DNA from: a virus | Reading direction: 5' to 3' (one strand) | IMG/VR virus record: IMGVR_UViG_3300027974_000156 | Location: 1-23,729 of that record | Length of the DNA stretch: 23,729 nt | Shown here: positions 3,931 to 10,647 of the stretch, piece after piece | How the letters are laid out: each line of letters begins with the position of its first letter | How positions within the stretch are numbered: position 1 is the stretch's first letter | Translations under genes and position numbers: made by a program | Notes under the pieces: model-generated | What the model was told of the DNA's origin: nothing | Database searches by the model: none | What the model saw: only the letters and a program-made list of their open reading frames with translations

Positions 3931-6900
3931 ATGATCAGACTTGACACGGTAAACAGATCGTTAACCCTTGTTCTTGGCGGGGCGCAAGTCACTGCGCCTT
4001 TGCAAATTGTTGTTTCCTATTCTGACCAGACTTCGGCCACCTATCTGGGTTCAACCCAGCTTGCAAATTCCAACGGTACAACTGCCGTAACCATCTGTTC
4101 TGCGCCTGTTACGTCTGTCATTCGTGACATTGACATGGTGACTGTCCTCAACACGGACACCGCATCTCAAGTTGTCACGATTCAGTTGCTAGACACGGCG
4201 ACCAACTACAAGATCATTTCGGTTACCTTGCTGGTAGGCGACAAGCTGACCTACACGCACGGCAGCGCTTGGCAAGTTGTCAACAACGCAGGAAATATCA
4301 AGTACAGCGTTCTTTCTAGCTCTGGCGTTGATTCATTTAGCGGCGGCTCTACGGGCCTTACGCCTGCGACAGCTACGACTGGCGCTGTTACCCTTGGCGG
4401 CACGCTTGCGGTGGCTAGCGGCGGCACTGGCACGGCTACACCGGCCTTAGTGGCTGGAACCAATGTCACTATCACCGGAAGCTGGCCCAATCAAACAATT
4501 AACTCTACTGGTTCAGCCGGTACGGTCACTAGCGTTGCAGCGCTGACGCTTGGCACAACTGGCACGGATGTTTCTTCCACTGTAGCCAATTCAACCACCA
4601 CGCCAGTCATCACGCTGAATTTGCCTACCGCATCGGCAACCAATCGAGGCGCGTTAAGCGCAGCGGATTGGACTACCTTTAACAGCAAAGGATCGGGCAC
4701 AGTCACATCGGTATCAGGCACAAGCGGACGCATCACAAGCACTGGCGGCACTACGCCGGTGCTTGACTTGACCAGCGGCATTGCAACGCCTGGCACAACC
4801 GGATCCGCTTCTTTGATTCCTGTGGTGACCATTGACACCTACGGGCGAGTCACCAGCATCACAACGGCGGCTAACCCGCAGGGCACGGTCACCAGCGTTA
4901 CCGGCACTTCGCCTATATCATCATCTGGTGGCGCAACGCCTGCAATTAGCTTGGACGCCAACTACGGCGACACGCAAAACCCTTACGCCTCCAAGACCGC
5001 AAACTATGTCTTGGCGGCTCCAAATGGAAGCGCGGGCGTGCCAACATTCCGCGCAATCGTTGCGGCTGATGTTCCTACGCTGAACCAAAACACTACAGGC
5101 ACAGCATCTAACGTAACCGGCACGGTTGCGGTGGTTAATGGTGGCACTGGAGCCACCACGGCAAGCGGCGCTAGGACAAACCTAAGCGCGGCACAAAGCG
5201 GCGCAAACACCGACATTACATCCATTGCGCTGACCACCGGCACTATTTCAACTGCGCCAAGCGCCAGCACGGACATTGTCAACAAGTCTTACGCCGACAG
5301 CATTGCCACCGGCATCAACTTCCACGCGGCCTGTAACTATGCAACAGCCGCTGCATTGTCTGCGGCTTACACATACAACAACGGAACAAGTGGAGTTGGC
5401 GCAACCATAACCGCAAACGCTGTTGGAACTTTAACTATTGATGGGTATACGTTTGTATCTGGAGACGTTGGCAAACGCATTCTTATAAAGAATGAAACTG
5501 GCTCATATGTTAACAATACAACGCCTAGTGCGGCGTTTAATGGCGTATACACCTTAACGACAGCAGGCACTGCTGGGGTTGCTTACGTCTTAACTCGCGC
5601 CACGGACTACGACACTAGCGGAACGGGAATTAACGAGATTGACATTGGCGACTTGTTGTTAGTGTTGTCCGGCACGGCCAACGCTAACACTTCATGGGTT
5701 CAACAGACACCGCTGCCTATCACGGTGGGCACTACGTCAATTGTTTTTATCCAATTTGCGGCGGTGCAAACTTACACGGCAGGCACAGGGCTAACCCTAG
5801 CCACCAACCAATTTTCTATTACCAATACGGGCACTGCGGGCACTTACGGGTCGGCGACTCAAATTCCCGTTTTGGTGACTAACGCACAGGGCCAAGTCAC
5901 AAGCGTTACCAACACGACTGTTACGCCCGCTGTAGGGTCAATTACCGGATTGGGCACGGGCGTATCAACTTTCCTCGCAACGCCGTCTAGCGCCAATCTA
6001 GCGGCTGCGGTGACTGATGAGACCGGATCTGGCGCATTGGTGTTTTCCACTTCGCCATCTTTGGTGACGCCGGTGCTAGGCACGCCAACATCTGGCGATT
6101 TCAGCACCGGAACATTTACATGGCCCACATTTAACCAAAACACCACAGGAACCGCGTCTAACGTGACGGGTACTGTGGCAATTGCCAATGGCGGTACGGG
6201 AGCCACAACGGCTGCGGCTGCGTTGACCAACTTGGGCGCATATCCAGCGTCTAACCCTAATGGATACACCAGCAACACCGGAACCGTGACCAGCGTTGCG
6301 GCCAGCGTACCAGCATTTCTGTCTGTGGCTGGTAGTCCTATTACTACGTCGGGCACTTTGGCAATCACCTACTCGGGCACGGCGCTGCCAATTGCTAATG
6401 GTGGTTCGGGTCAGACTACCGCCCAGTTGGCAATGAACGCCTTTGCTGGCGCGGTCACTAGCGGGTCATATTTGCGCGGTAACGGCACAAATGTGGTGAT
6501 GGCAACAATCCAAGCTGCTGATGTGCCTACGCTCAATCAAAACACGACAGGGTCTGCTGGATCTGTAGCCAACGCGCTGACATCGGGCACAGGCATATCG
6601 TTTAGTTCCGGCACAACCTATAACGGGTCGGCGGCCATCACCATCAACAATTCGCTGCCTATGGTGTACCCAGGCGCAGGCATTTCCAATTCAACGGGAA
6701 CTGCTTGGGGTACGTCGTACACCACCACAGGCAGCGGAACCGTTGTGGCGTTGGCAACTTCGCCCAGCTTTACGACGCCGGTTCTTGGTACGCCAACTAG
6801 CGGAAACTTTAGCACCGGCTCTTTTACTTGGCCGACGTTCAATCAGAACACGACAGGCACAGCCGCCAACGTGACGGGCACGGTAGCTATTGCCAACGGC

Positions 6901-7389
6901 GGTACAGGTCAGACAACAGCAGCGGCTGGGTTTAATGCTTTGTCGCCCATCACTAGCATTGGTGACTTAATCCTTGGCAATGGCACAAACAGCGCCACCC
7001 GTTTGGGCATAGGTGCAAATGGCTATGTTCTGACATCTAACGGCACAACAGCATCTTGGGCTGCGGGTGGTGGTGGAGGTGGTGGTTCGGTCACCATCAG
7101 CAACGACACGACTACCGCGACTAATTTATACCCGTCGTTTTTTGCTGCAACATCTGGCACTGCGTCTACGATTTACACCAGCGACGCCAAACTGCTCTAT
7201 AAACCATCCACAGGCGAATTCCAATCGTCAATCGTAAACGCCAACAATGGAATTTTTGTAAATTCAGCAACAATTTCTACAAGCTACACTATTGCAACGG
7301 GAACTAATGGTGCTTCGTATGGGCCTATTTCTGTATCGTCAAGCGTAACGGTAACTGTGGCAAGTGGATCAGTTTGGACAATCAATTAA
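3931..7389 (+). CDS. Large repeat-rich tail fibre protein (1152 aa)
   Basis: This is the longest gene in the window and very likely encodes a trimeric receptor-binding fibre. Composition is Thr, Gly, Ser, Ala and Val rich, with almost no Cys. Residues 1-130 form a non-repetitive N-terminal domain, probably the virion attachment part. A beta-repeat shaft follows, with recurring units GTVTSV..., NQNTTGTASNVTGTV and ANGGTGATTAAAALTNLG. The last is typical of the Phage_fiber_2 type repeat. Residues 467-620 hold an insert (TIDGYTFVSGDVGKRILIKN, then a TSWVQQTPLP segment) seen in other phage fibres. A seven-glycine hinge near residue 1045 leads to a C-terminal tip domain of about 100 residues ending in SSSVTVTVASGSVWTIN. 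No catalytic motif was seen, so a fibre is preferred over a depolymerising spike. Confidence 0.85.
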   Translation: MIRLDTVNRSLTLVLGGAQVTAPLQIVVSYSDQTSATYLGSTQLANSNGTTAVTICSAPVTSVIRDIDMVTVLNTDTASQVVTIQLLDTATNYKIISVTLLVGDKLTYTHGSAWQVVNNAGNIKYSVLSSSGVDSFSGGSTGLTPATATTGAVTLGGTLAVASGGTGTATPALVAGTNVTITGSWPNQTINSTGSAGTVTSVAALTLGTTGTDVSSTVANSTTTPVITLNLPTASATNRGALSAADWTTFNSKGSGTVTSVSGTSGRITSTGGTTPVLDLTSGIATPGTTGSASLIPVVTIDTYGRVTSITTAANPQGTVTSVTGTSPISSSGGATPAISLDANYGDTQNPYASKTANYVLAAPNGSAGVPTFRAIVAADVPTLNQNTTGTASNVTGTVAVVNGGTGATTASGARTNLSAAQSGANTDITSIALTTGTISTAPSASTDIVNKSYADSIATGINFHAACNYATAAALSAAYTYNNGTSGVGATITANAVGTLTIDGYTFVSGDVGKRILIKNETGSYVNNTTPSAAFNGVYTLTTAGTAGVAYVLTRATDYDTSGTGINEIDIGDLLLVLSGTANANTSWVQQTPLPITVGTTSIVFIQFAAVQTYTAGTGLTLATNQFSITNTGTAGTYGSATQIPVLVTNAQGQVTSVTNTTVTPAVGSITGLGTGVSTFLATPSSANLAAAVTDETGSGALVFSTSPSLVTPVLGTPTSGDFSTGTFTWPTFNQNTTGTASNVTGTVAIANGGTGATTAAAALTNLGAYPASNPNGYTSNTGTVTSVAASVPAFLSVAGSPITTSGTLAITYSGTALPIANGGSGQTTAQLAMNAFAGAVTSGSYLRGNGTNVVMATIQAADVPTLNQNTTGSAGSVANALTSGTGISFSSGTTYNGSAAITINNSLPMVYPGAGISNSTGTAWGTSYTTTGSGTVVALATSPSFTTPVLGTPTSGNFSTGSFTWPTFNQNTTGTAANVTGTVAIANGGTGQTTAAAGFNALSPITSIGDLILGNGTNSATRLGIGANGYVLTSNGTTASWAAGGGGGGGSVTISNDTTTATNLYPSFFAATSGTASTIYTSDAKLLYKPSTGEFQSSIVNANNGIFVNSATISTSYTIATGTNGASYGPISVSSSVTVTVASGSVWTIN
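6038..6220 (+). repeat. Fibre repeat block, copy A
   Basis: About 183 bp encoding a block that includes TPVLGTPTSGDFSTGTFTWP and then NQNTTGTASNVTGTV and ANGGTGATTA. A second copy lies 708 bp (236 codons) downstream at 6746-6928. The two match closely at protein level, while many third codon positions differ. This indicates an old duplication or import of related modules rather than a fresh one. Confidence 0.75.
6280..6411 (+). repeat. Fibre module shared with the second fibre gene
   Basis: 132 bp encoding residues 784-827 of the large fibre (start GTVTSVAASVPAFLSV, later TTSGTLAI and YSGTALP). The same 44-residue unit occurs without gaps in the 330-residue fibre at 16082-16213. By hand count 35 of 44 residues agree. 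Confidence 0.75.
6746..6928 (+). repeat. Fibre repeat block, copy B
   Basis: This is the second copy of the 6038-6220 block, with protein sequence TPVLGTPTSGNFSTGSFTWP followed by NQNTTGTAANVTGTV and ANGGTGQTTA. It is in frame and exactly 708 bp from copy A. Loss or gain by recombination between the two would remove or add 236 residues of fibre shaft without a frameshift. Confidence 0.75.
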
Positions 7390-7401: not shown

Positions 7402-7776
7402 ATGGCAACGACAATAAGCGGAACAACTGGCGTAGCAACCAGTAATATAACTCTTACGGGCTATTACACAGAAAGCGTTGTTGCCATTGGTAGCAGTGGA
7501 ACTACGCAAACATTGTCTCTCACTAGCGGCACATTTCAAACCGTAACGCTTACGGGTAATTGCACTTTTACCATGCCAACGGCCACCGCAGGGCAATCGT
7601 TTATTTTAATTGTTAGCCAAGACGCAACTGGCGGCAGAACCGCAACATTTACAAGCGTCAAGTGGCCTGGCGGCACTGCGCCGACCATTACGGCAACAGC
7701 TTCAGCGGTGGATATTTTGAGTTTTGTTTCCAACGGCACTAACTGGTACGGCAACTACGCACAGGCGTTTGCATAA
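7402..7776 (+). CDS. Small beta-sandwich fibre-associated protein (124 aa)
   Basis: This gene encodes 124 residues that look like a free-standing copy of a module often fused to phage fibres. The central part reads TVTLTGNCTFTMPTATAGQS, then FILIVSQDATGGRTATF and VKWPGGTAPT, closing with DILSFVSNGTNWYGN. In other phages a near-identical module sits at fibre or appendage tips. ATG 7402 follows AAGGCAAG at 7391-7398, and the stop overlaps the next ATG by one base (TAATG). Lying between a large fibre and a glycine-rich adhesin, it is probably a structural component or adaptor of the host-binding apparatus. No enzyme motif is present. Confidence 0.72.
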   Translation: MATTISGTTGVATSNITLTGYYTESVVAIGSSGTTQTLSLTSGTFQTVTLTGNCTFTMPTATAGQSFILIVSQDATGGRTATFTSVKWPGGTAPTITATASAVDILSFVSNGTNWYGNYAQAFA

Positions 7777-9404
7777 TGTTTGCATCCAAAAATTTCTTTG
7801 TTACCAAAAATTCTAAAGGTAACTATTTAATCATTGAGCAATTTTTTGCGTCCAGTTCATGGAAAGCACCTGCTGGTGTTACAACTGTTGATTACCTTGT
7901 TGTGGCGGGTGGTGGAGGCGGTGGTTCTGGCGGCGGTGGTGGTGGCGCTGGAGGCTTTAGAACTGGCACAGCATTTTCTGTTACGGCAGGAACTACTTAT
8001 ACGATAACTGTAGGTGCTGGTGGGACAGGTGGTGCATCTAGCGGAAAACAAAGCGGAACAAAAGGAAACGATTCTGTTTTCTCAACCATCACATCTACAG
8101 GTGGTGGATTGGGTGCTGGATACTTAACTGCGGGTGGAAATGCGGGTGGGTCTGGTGGGTCTGGTGGCGGTGGCTCAAAAGATAGTGGTGCAGCAGGAGG
8201 CGCGGGCAATACCCCATCAACATCACCAGCTCAAGGCACTAGCGGCGGCACAACTGCTGCTGGCGGTTCCAAAGGCGGTTCTGGTGGCGGTGGCGCATCT
8301 GTTGCAGGGACAGGCGGCACTGGTTCTGGTACTACAGAATTTGGTGGCGCTGGCGGCGCTGGCACTGCTTCAACAATAACCGGTTCTAGCGTTACTTATG
8401 CCGGCGGCGGCGGTGGTGGTGTTAATTTAAGCGGTGGTGCTGGAACTACGCCAGGTGCTGGCGGCGCTGGTGGTGGTGGTAGTGGAGCCACTACTGTTGG
8501 TGGAACTGGTGTTGCTGGTACTACTAATACTGGCGGCGGTGCTGGTGGAGGGGATTTCACTGGCGTTGGCGGGGCTGGCGGTTCAGGCATTGTGATTTTG
8601 TCCTACACCCTGCCAAAAGGCACAGCAATTGAATTTGTGTCTACTGCTCAATGGACAGCACCAACAGGCATATTAACCGTTGACTATTTGGTGATAGCTG
8701 GCGGTGGTGGCGGTGCTGGAACTGGTGGTGGCGGCGGTGGCGCTGGTGGATTTAGAACGGGAACTTCTTTTTCTGTAACGGCAGGAACGACTTACACCAT
8801 TACCGTAGGTGGCGGTGGGGCTGCTGGAACAGGCGGTGCAGGAACTAACGGCGCAAAAGGTGCTGATTCAATTTTCAGCACTATCACATCTACAGGTGGT
8901 GGACTAGGTGCCAAAATTGGAGGACAAGGCGGTTCAGGTGGTAGTGGCGGCGGTTCGGGTAAAGACTCAAACGTAGCTGGCGGTGCGGGTAATACCCCAA
9001 GCACCAGCCCATCTCAAGGAAGTAACGGCGGTTCTGTGCCAGGAAGCGGCAACATTGGCGCTAGTGGTGGCGGCGGTGCTAGTGCAGTTGGTGCTAATGG
9101 TGGCGGTGGGCCTGCCGCAGAAATTGGTGGAAATGGTGGTGCTGGTACAGCCTCCAGCATAACTGGAAGTAGCGTCACCTATAGCGGGGGAGGTGGAGGG
9201 GCGGTCAATAGTATTGGAACGCCAACGCCCGGACTTGGCGGTGCAGGCGGTGGCGGTAATGCCTCTATCAATCAGACTTCTGTTGGTTCGCCGGGAACAA
9301 CCAATAGGGGTGGTGGTGGAGGCGGCGGTGACTATGCATCCACAGGCACGGCTCAAGCTGGTGGCGCTGGCGGCTCAGGCATTGTTATCCTCAAGCTGAA
9401 CTAA
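7776..9404 (+). CDS. Glycine-rich adhesin-like protein with two tandem copies (542 aa)
   Basis: This gene encodes 542 residues, exceptionally rich in Gly with Ala, Ser and Thr. It is built from two copies of one domain, about residues 29-278 and 293-542. Each copy opens with a WKAP/WTAP plus VDYLVVAGGGGGG-type strand. Next come AGGFRTGT and SVTAGTTYTITVG, then long runs of Gly-rich triplets with NTPSTSP and SSVTY islands, closing with GGAGGSGIVIL. Gly-rich runs of this kind can pack as polyglycine II helices, as in the S16 phage gp38 tip adhesin, with variable residues exposed in loops. A tail-tip adhesin recognising the host surface is therefore the likely role, by inference. It starts in a TAATG overlap with the preceding gene. 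It has no signal peptide and no catalytic motif. Confidence 0.78.
   Translation: MFASKNFFVTKNSKGNYLIIEQFFASSSWKAPAGVTTVDYLVVAGGGGGGSGGGGGGAGGFRTGTAFSVTAGTTYTITVGAGGTGGASSGKQSGTKGNDSVFSTITSTGGGLGAGYLTAGGNAGGSGGSGGGGSKDSGAAGGAGNTPSTSPAQGTSGGTTAAGGSKGGSGGGGASVAGTGGTGSGTTEFGGAGGAGTASTITGSSVTYAGGGGGGVNLSGGAGTTPGAGGAGGGGSGATTVGGTGVAGTTNTGGGAGGGDFTGVGGAGGSGIVILSYTLPKGTAIEFVSTAQWTAPTGILTVDYLVIAGGGGGAGTGGGGGGAGGFRTGTSFSVTAGTTYTITVGGGGAAGTGGAGTNGAKGADSIFSTITSTGGGLGAKIGGQGGSGGSGGGSGKDSNVAGGAGNTPSTSPSQGSNGGSVPGSGNIGASGGGGASAVGANGGGGPAAEIGGNGGAGTASSITGSSVTYSGGGGGAVNSIGTPTPGLGGAGGGGNASINQTSVGSPGTTNRGGGGGGGDYASTGTAQAGGAGGSGIVILKLN
7860..8609 (+). repeat. Glycine-rich adhesin domain, copy 1
   Basis: First of two in-frame tandem copies within the glycine-rich gene. 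The conserved edges are the DYLVVAGGGG start and the GGAGGSGIVIL end; both are present in copy 2 at 8649-9404. The interior differs in length and order of the Gly-rich runs, while the FRTGT, SVTAGTTYTITVG, STITSTGGGLGA and NTPSTSP anchors keep the same order. Confidence 0.75.
8649..9404 (+). repeat. Glycine-rich adhesin domain, copy 2
   Basis: Second copy of the 7860-8609 unit. Anchors DYLVIAGGGG, GGFRTGT, SVTAGTTYTITVG, STITSTGGGLGA, NTPSTSP and GGAGGSGIVIL occur in the same order as in copy 1. The Gly-rich loops between them have diverged, which is what would be expected if the loops determine binding specificity. Confidence 0.75.
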
Positions 9405-9405
9405 C

Positions 9406-9624
9406 ATGAAAAAGTACCAACTTTATGGAATAGACACGGCAATGCAATTGCTGCGCCCTAATGCCAAGTGGGAAATCAGCAACCGCACCATCACGCGCTG
9501 GGAAGATGACAGACCATGTCCAACATGGGAAGAAATTGACGCAACAATGGAAAAGATTAAGGCGTTTGAGGACTCAATCTCAACCATTTGGACAGTTAAG
9601 ATTTTGGAAGAATTGGAGATGTAA
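9406..9624 (+). CDS. Small conserved phage protein (72 aa) in fibre cassette
   Basis: This gene encodes 72 residues that are soluble and helix-prone. The motif KYQLYGIDTAMQLLRPNAKW near the start and WEDDRPCPTWEEI in the middle recall a small protein encoded next to fibre genes in many aquatic phages. Its function is not known to me. It begins two bases after the stop of the glycine-rich gene, without a clear Shine-Dalgarno, so it probably depends on translational coupling. It ends with a one-base overlap with the next ATG (TAATG). A chaperone or fibre-assembly role would fit the position, but nothing in the sequence shows it. Confidence 0.65.
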   Translation: MKKYQLYGIDTAMQLLRPNAKWEISNRTITRWEDDRPCPTWEEIDATMEKIKAFEDSISTIWTVKILEELEM

Positions 9625-9974
9625 TGGCACACTTTGCAAAGATTGAAAACGGCATAGTTACCCAAGTGGTTGTGATTGCTAATGCAGACACGGCATCTGC
9701 TGATGGCACAGAAAAAGATTACATTGGTGCTGCTTTCTGTGAACGCTTGTTTGGTGGCGATTGGAAGCAAACCAGCTACAACGGGCGTATCCGCAAGAAC
9801 TACGCTGGAGTCGGTTACACCTACGATGAAGGCCGCAATGCGTTTATCCCTCCACAACCATATCCAAGCTGGACTTTGGTGGAAGATACTTGCCAGTGGA
9901 CGCCGCCTGTTTCATACCCAGCTAATGGGATGTACACTTGGGATGAGTCAACCATTTCTTGGGTGGCTACATGA
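9624..9974 (+). CDS. Conserved fibre-cassette protein (116 aa)
   Basis: This gene encodes 116 residues beginning MAHFAKIENGIVTQVVVIAN, a start I recall from many tail-associated proteins of marine and freshwater phages. A later segment RKNYAGVGYTYDEGRNAFIP and the proline/tryptophan-rich part PSWTLVEDTCQWTPPVSYP belong to the same pattern. In other phages these proteins lie beside fibres and are thought to be virion or fibre-assembly components; there is no experimental function I can cite. TAATG overlap with the gene before and ATGA overlap with the gene after put it in a tightly coupled group. Confidence 0.68.
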   Translation: MAHFAKIENGIVTQVVVIANADTASADGTEKDYIGAAFCERLFGGDWKQTSYNGRIRKNYAGVGYTYDEGRNAFIPPQPYPSWTLVEDTCQWTPPVSYPANGMYTWDESTISWVAT

Positions 9975-10306
9975 CCGTAACCGCCAAAACGCTAGTGCCT
10001 GCCAAGTTTGTCGACGTGGCGCAGACCACGCAATACACAGCGACCAATGTCACGGCCATCATTGACAAGTTCACGGCCACCAACATCAGCGGATCGTCGG
10101 CAACCATCAGCGTCAACCTGGTGACCGCCAGCTTTTCAGCATCTAGCAGCAACTTGATTGTCAAGGACAAGCTACTTGCGGCCAGCGAGACATACATCTT
10201 TCCCGAGTTGGTAGGCCAAATTCTAGGATCCGGCGCGTTCATCTCAACCACGGCCAGCACGGCTAGCGCCATCAATATGCGCGTCAGCGGAAGGGAAGTA
10301 ACGTGA
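9971..10306 (+). CDS. Small beta-rich hypothetical protein (111 aa)
   Basis: This gene encodes 111 residues from ATG 9971, which overlaps the upstream stop as ATGA. A TTG at 9959 would add four residues but lies further inside the upstream gene, and ATG is preferred. The sequence alternates strands and short polar turns (FTATNISGSSATISVNLVTA, then KLLAASETYIFPELVGQIL). It looks like a single beta-sandwich domain, comparable to head-tail or fibre accessory proteins. The segment YTATNVTAIIDKFTATN and the phrase LAASETYIFPELVGQ resemble a family of small phage structural proteins I have seen unnamed in environmental genomes. The role is unknown. Confidence 0.65.
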   Translation: MTVTAKTLVPAKFVDVAQTTQYTATNVTAIIDKFTATNISGSSATISVNLVTASFSASSSNLIVKDKLLAASETYIFPELVGQILGSGAFISTTASTASAINMRVSGREVT

Positions 10307-10647
10307 TCAAGCATCATTTTTCTAGCGGCGTGTACGCCAAGGAAACCATGATTCCTGCGGGAAGCTGGTTGGTTCAACACATTCACAAGCACAGCCACCT
10401 ATCCATCTTGGCCAGTGGCTCCATTGAATTGGTGGTTGACGGCGAAAAATCCGTTCTGCACGCCCCCGCGTGCCTTAGTATTGCCGCAGGCAAGCATCAC
10501 GGCGTAAAATCGCTCACAGACGTAGTTTGGTACTGTATCCACGCAACCGATTGCACGGATGAGGATGAGATAGACGAAGTTCTTATAGTGCCTGCAAATG
10601 GCGCTCAGATCCAAAATATTGCTCAAATTATGAGCGAAGGAGTTTGA
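10303..10647 (+). CDS. Cupin-fold protein (114 aa)
   Basis: This gene encodes 114 residues with a single cupin domain. The first metal-binding motif is the His cluster HIHKHSH (residues 26-32), followed by LSILASGSIELVVDGE. The second motif is PACLSIAAGKHHGVKSL (residues 55-71) with His65/His66 as likely ligands. The Glu of the classic first motif is not at its usual spacing. Cupins bind a metal and act as sugar isomerases, dioxygenases or pure binding proteins; the substrate cannot be told here. It starts at GTG 10303 in a GTGA overlap, with AAGGGA at 10291-10296 as ribosome site. The position between fibre-cassette genes and the ejection proteins makes a virion or fibre-modifying role conceivable, but this is inference. 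Confidence 0.75.
   Translation: MIKHHFSSGVYAKETMIPAGSWLVQHIHKHSHLSILASGSIELVVDGEKSVLHAPACLSIAAGKHHGVKSLTDVVWYCIHATDCTDEDEIDEVLIVPANGAQIQNIAQIMSEGV

Follow-up and report, generated by a model that had tools for sequence, protein, structure and literature searches.

The 542-residue glycine-rich protein encoded at positions 7776–9404 (+ strand) of the window, by which we mean the whole stretch of DNA analyzed (23,729 bases, the whole virus record), consists of two tandem PF21722 domains, and we consider it likely that it is a receptor-binding fiber tip with two heads in a P22-like short-tailed phage, of which the window is a part. The same doubled protein occurs in many uncultured aquatic phages, which argues that it is real and probably a two-headed tip for host recognition, assembled from a domain type already known. 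Single-headed glycine-rich adhesins were already known as host-range determinants in several phage groups; what is added here is a better structural parallel, a conserved cassette, the observation that the loops and not the anchors diversify, and evidence of head-by-head exchange. The location at the tip, the binding of a receptor, the chaperone roles and the two specificities are what we infer.

A tandem duplication of one glycine-rich domain had been proposed in a sequence-only reading of this DNA, and the profile and alignment data bear it out. PF21722 (Gly_rich_2) is found twice by Pfam, with 142.7 bits for the whole protein against a cut-off of 24.3, and in a genome profile search each copy alone lies above the gathering cut-off (87 and 64 bits vs 24.3). 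The copies are 61% identical over 236 columns by BLASTP. Glycine accounts for 36% of the residues, as would suit a repeat that is simply a low-complexity artifact of a glycine-rich sequence. However, when copy 2 was shuffled with its composition kept (n = 500), the shuffles scored 266 ± 14 with a maximum of 332, while the local alignment score of the two copies is 843. This score is far outside the equal-composition shuffles, and glycine content therefore does not explain the repeat. As the non-glycine anchors are also conserved, the folds are confident and dozens of contigs have the same architecture, we reject the artifact and give it practically no credence.

Head 1 spans residues 22–279 approximately (7839–8612) and head 2 residues 283–542 (8622–9401), with a Pro-Lys-Gly linker at residues 280–282 (8613–8621) between them, all on the + strand; P280, K281 and G282 show no variation in ten cassette relatives. 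The bounds of the two copies had been placed at residues 29–278 and 293–542. These do start at the conserved Trp, but the predicted domains begin earlier, with a strand at residues 17–23 for copy 1 and 284–287 for copy 2 in the AlphaFold2 model. Nine variable loops are found in each head, starting after residues 50, 83, 113, 132, 158, 178, 214, 237 and 258 in head 1 and after residues 314, 348, 378, 393, 419, 439, 475, 496 and 517 in head 2. The description of the copies as conserved anchors with diverged loops between them holds as well. With conserved columns defined from 86 other domains, the two copies are 95% identical in these columns (88% without Gly-Gly pairs) and 42% identical in the remaining, variable columns (35% without Gly-Gly pairs).

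Structure prediction was confident both for the whole protein and for head 2 separately. The full-length AlphaFold2 model, from an alignment of 44 full-length proteins, has a mean pLDDT of 89.8 and a pTM of 0.80, and that of head 2 alone, from an alignment of 71 domains, a mean pLDDT of 94.8 and a pTM of 0.91. Short strands are seen at the anchors with unassigned extended glycine-rich stretches in between; the model contains no helix, and confidence is low at residues 1–11. Among the matches listed by Foldseek, the best PDB match is the Pam3 tail fiber 7ypx (E 3.3e-6, probability 1.00, though the TM-score is only 0.41–0.43), followed by the Bxb1 tail tip 9d93, chains Qa and Qb, and these two structures are the only significant ones. 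The glycine-rich domains of ALK/LTK come next with partial overlap and non-significant values (probability up to 0.97, E about 0.1). For a single head against the significant solved structures, TM-scores are 0.39–0.54 (query or target normalized) with high rmsd; since these scores are modest, the matches point to a kinship of architecture and not to close similarity. Many relatives are found in BFVD, up to a TM-score of 0.90. Sequence-profile searches of the PDB gave no match to the solved Pam3 and Bxb1 entries, and fibronectin monobodies, which appeared as PDB sequence matches, were rejected as compositional matches.

The polyglycine sandwich of the S16 gp38 tip had been suggested as the parallel for each copy. 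A packed glycine-rich fold is supported by the confident model and by the glycine-rich domains of tail fibers and tail tips that head the PDB matches, so that the idea of a polyglycine adhesin holds in kind, as does the proposed tail-adhesin role. The particular parallel was not retrieved: S16 gp38 (6F45) is absent among the Foldseek matches listed and from the sequence searches. S16 and T2-type gp38 carry hypervariable receptor loops on a glycine-rich lattice (PMC12892980), and the tandem protein is alike in principle, its hypervariable loops sitting on a glycine-rich scaffold that is conserved, whereas gp38 has one head, a beta-helix and fiber-docking helices. On the predicted fold, the layout of Pam3 gp24, a TNF-like beta-sandwich with glycine-rich loops that is also seen in ALK/LTK, is the better model. 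In Pam3 gp24 the strands of the TNF-like domain run on into a lattice built from twelve glycine-rich segments, and the variable distal tip was proposed to bind the host (PMC9608196). The likeness to this protein (7ypx, 7yfw) extends from the best Foldseek matches to the GGGGxGG motifs and the variable tips, and a chaperone is encoded alongside Pam3 gp24. In contrast, each Pam3 gp24 chain carries a single head and, at its N-terminus, an alpha-helical trimer shaft, whereas the tandem protein is two-headed, is predicted to contain no helix, and has its fiber domain encoded separately upstream.

Other known proteins resemble single heads. The Bxb1 tail tip belongs to a siphophage, and its matching chains, of about 230 residues, have the size of one head; in a 2026 paper, the Bxb1 gp33 brush domains and gp29 subdomains are described as polyproline/polyglycine helical bundles, and the Pam3, Bxb1 and S16 glycine-rich domains are grouped as helical bundles (PMC13243192). 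The glycine-rich tail-fiber adhesins of archaeal hafunaviruses contain hypervariable segments, are followed by a small gene and determine host range (PMC8651126). A 297-residue glycine-rich protein of the archaeal myovirus HF2, about the size of one head, matches the head fold, although it may be another protein than the host-range adhesin of that report. The similarity to ALK/LTK, which are animal receptor kinases, is of fold only, and weak. Both copies belong to PF21722, a family whose name implies no function and in which the two-head cassette is not annotated. Occurrence of the copies in non-tail proteins had been named as evidence that would count against a tail role, and this is partly touched on by the data: the glycine-rich domain is also found outside phage tails, in a Methanosarcina control genome and in algal-virus proteins, while the cassettes examined adjoin fiber genes.

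The genome setting is that of a short-tailed phage, with genes matching head-tail adaptor Ad3, head closure Hc3, DNA-ejection proteins, holin and endolysin. Judged by its Hc3 protein (74% identity), the nearest isolate is DSL-LC05, a phage from Dishui Lake. In that phage a sialate O-acetylesterase and a putative tail-fiber protein are encoded in the stretch that separates the gp10-like protein from the ejection genes, and no gene in this slot is annotated as glycine-rich; the glycine-rich gene of the window thus lies in a slot that holds different fiber-like genes in a close relative. Upstream of the cassette is a repetitive tail-fiber-like protein of 1152 residues (3931–7389, +) with a weak tail-fiber PHROG match. 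The cassette opens with a 124-residue protein (7402–7776, +) with PHROG tail-fiber matches, a tail-fiber C-terminal domain that in most relatives is the end of a larger fiber ORF directly upstream of the glycine-rich protein; it is the candidate attachment point for that protein. Downstream are a 72-residue protein (9406–9624, +; phrog_21526, with a weak XkdW-like match) and a 116-residue protein (9624–9974, +; phrog_7759). This order of fiber C-terminal domain, glycine-rich gene, 72-residue gene and 116-residue gene is constant in the closest relatives; the 72-residue gene is missing from some cassettes, and the upstream fiber parts vary between contigs. Over ten cassettes, the mean amino acid identity is 86% for the 124-residue domain, 97% for the 72-residue protein and 88% for the 116-residue protein. 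In the adhesin itself the anchors are 89% and the loops 41% identical, with loop lengths of 1–17 residues, a sequence pattern that would be expected of receptor-contacting loops on a fixed scaffold. A second IMG/VR contig (L003, 3300009160_000530) carries an adhesin that is 100% identical and identical neighboring proteins, and therefore represents the same phage sampled again.

Relatives were collected from IMG/VR scans through neighbor genes and pattern scans. A tblastn search of isolate phages with the tandem protein gave no match, most likely because the low-complexity filter of BLAST masks the protein. Among the matches listed, complete ORFs with the domain include at least 60 with two copies, at least 50 with one, at least 7 with three and at least 3 with four; since this set was retrieved with a two-copy query, these are not population frequencies, and a looser count differs slightly, since in it a single domain is sometimes divided between two weak matches. 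The single-copy relatives whose search had been proposed thus exist, and some of them (L018, L020, L021, L089) occupy the same position behind the 124-residue domain. Two-copy proteins are also present in isolates, namely WJZ48128.1 of DSL-LC04 and gp33 and gp38 of Synechococcus phage Bellamy, all annotated as hypothetical. The tandem arrangement is therefore widespread in many uncultured aquatic phages and not peculiar to the window phage; in the literature searched, with its partial coverage, no tandem heads are described. Four-headed versions of 1049–1088 residues were observed at L072:4361–7549, L086:5155–8418 and L040:5965–9111, each with the 72-residue gene behind it. At L020:4011–8828, three single-head glycine-rich genes lie close together, each followed by a 116-residue homologue, and in two of them the N-terminal part, about 150 residues long, is different.

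Comparison of the heads across these proteins shows an old duplication with later exchange. In a set of 44 two-copy proteins, mean identity is 61.1% between the two heads of one protein, 59.6–60.2% between heads in the same position of different proteins, and 58.8% between heads in different positions. In the head tree, heads cluster mostly by their position, first or second (8 label changes vs about 30 when shuffled), and this grouping argues that the duplication is old. Head 1 of the window falls among the second heads; both of its ends resemble first heads and most of the interior resembles second heads, a pattern that, with small per-segment signals, suggests internal conversion. The clearest case of exchange is the pair L012 and L015, in which head 1 is 96% identical without indels and head 2 is 62% identical, the divergence beginning in the first anchors of head 2; the 72-residue gene stands behind the adhesin in L012 only. 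A shared head 1 next to a different head 2 indicates that heads are replaced one at a time and independently. The domain tree and this pair together support two heads that evolve independently.

In the mechanism we propose, each head would be a compact unit, predicted to have a base of beta strands and a rigid lattice made of glycine-rich segments stacked on one another, on which about nine hypervariable loops are presented. The three-residue linker would join the two heads, the tip would probably dock on the fiber through the 124-residue domain encoded just upstream, and the 72-residue and/or 116-residue proteins may assist folding. Mutation and recombination of the heads, taken to act separately and at the conserved anchors, would allow one virion to present two sets of loops, and hence two specificities or a higher avidity. 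Diversification and independent exchange, both read from sequence comparisons, suggest that both heads bind, and that they bind different receptors.

Whether two heads mean two receptors is where the readings part. Both heads may instead bind the same receptor, the duplication only raising avidity or mimicking an oligomer, with one specificity. The 95% identity of the head anchors fits this, as does head 1 of the window, which with its mostly head-2-like interior sits in the head-2 clade as if homogenized. However, identity between the two heads is as low as 42% in the loop columns, heads within a protein are barely more alike than heads between proteins, and L012 and L015 keep head 1 while changing head 2; we regard a single shared receptor as possible, though the less probable outcome. 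It is also conceivable, and in our view unlikely, that receptor contact is made by a single head, with the other serving as a spacer or docking module between it and the fiber. Heads that form largely distinct lineages would be expected if their roles differ, and one-copy proteins do occur in the same position behind the 124-residue domain. A pure spacer, however, should not diversify as both heads do, each with nine loops that all vary in sequence and length.

More improbable still is a sticky brush or decoration protein that adheres nonspecifically to surfaces and is no receptor-binding tip. One source (PMC13243795) discusses the glycine-rich "brush" domains of phage hubs as presumed contacts with lipid surfaces, and a copy number that runs from one to four would suit such a role; yet hypervariable loops on a constant scaffold within a fiber cassette point to specific recognition. 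The two-headed tip is thus the reading we prefer. A broader version of it, namely a widespread class of adhesins with two, sometimes three or four, exchangeable heads, each with its own specificity, a dedicated 72-residue partner and a combinatorial host range, we put forward only tentatively. Separate swapping of the heads in a common two-headed form would explain how a single phage could recognize two receptors or hosts, and how its host range could shift head by head. The clear division between anchors and loops makes this reading directly testable in culturable relatives.

The small downstream proteins are candidates for assembly roles, the 72-residue protein as a clamp of the tandem protein or a chaperone for its assembly, and the 116-residue protein as a chaperone. 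Among the relatives listed, the 72-residue gene immediately follows 41 of 77 multi-copy proteins and 0 of 54 one-copy proteins (Fisher p 8e-13), an association that may reflect shared descent, as independent tree contrasts are too few; the tie to multi-copy proteins is only a lead. In many phages of marine and fresh waters, a member of the 116-residue family stands behind the glycine-rich fiber gene, whether this encodes one copy or several. The 72-residue family falls below the XkdW cut-off (best E 0.0062 in 9 of 25 members; 14.1 bits for the window member vs a cut-off of 24.6). As for a counterpart of the Pam3 gp25 chaperone, conserved small genes are present downstream; the profiles of the 72- and 116-residue proteins match no solved chaperone convincingly and have no credible PDB match, the top match of the former being a designed repeat protein.

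Further genes accompany the cassette. In many relatives a gene for about 200 residues, absent from the window, lies between the 72-residue and 116-residue genes (for example L045:5002–5601, L113:5324–5941, L072:7811–8419, L039:7097–7699 and about 20 other loci). The four that were tested are 2OG-Fe(II) oxygenases (PF13759), and so some adhesin cassettes may encode a hydroxylase that acts on the fiber. At L071:2263–2772, an HNH endonuclease (PF13392) takes the place of the oxygenase. In the window, a 114-residue cupin-domain protein (10303–10647), whose PHROG families are short tail fiber and tail fiber adhesin, is encoded just after the cassette and before the ejection genes.
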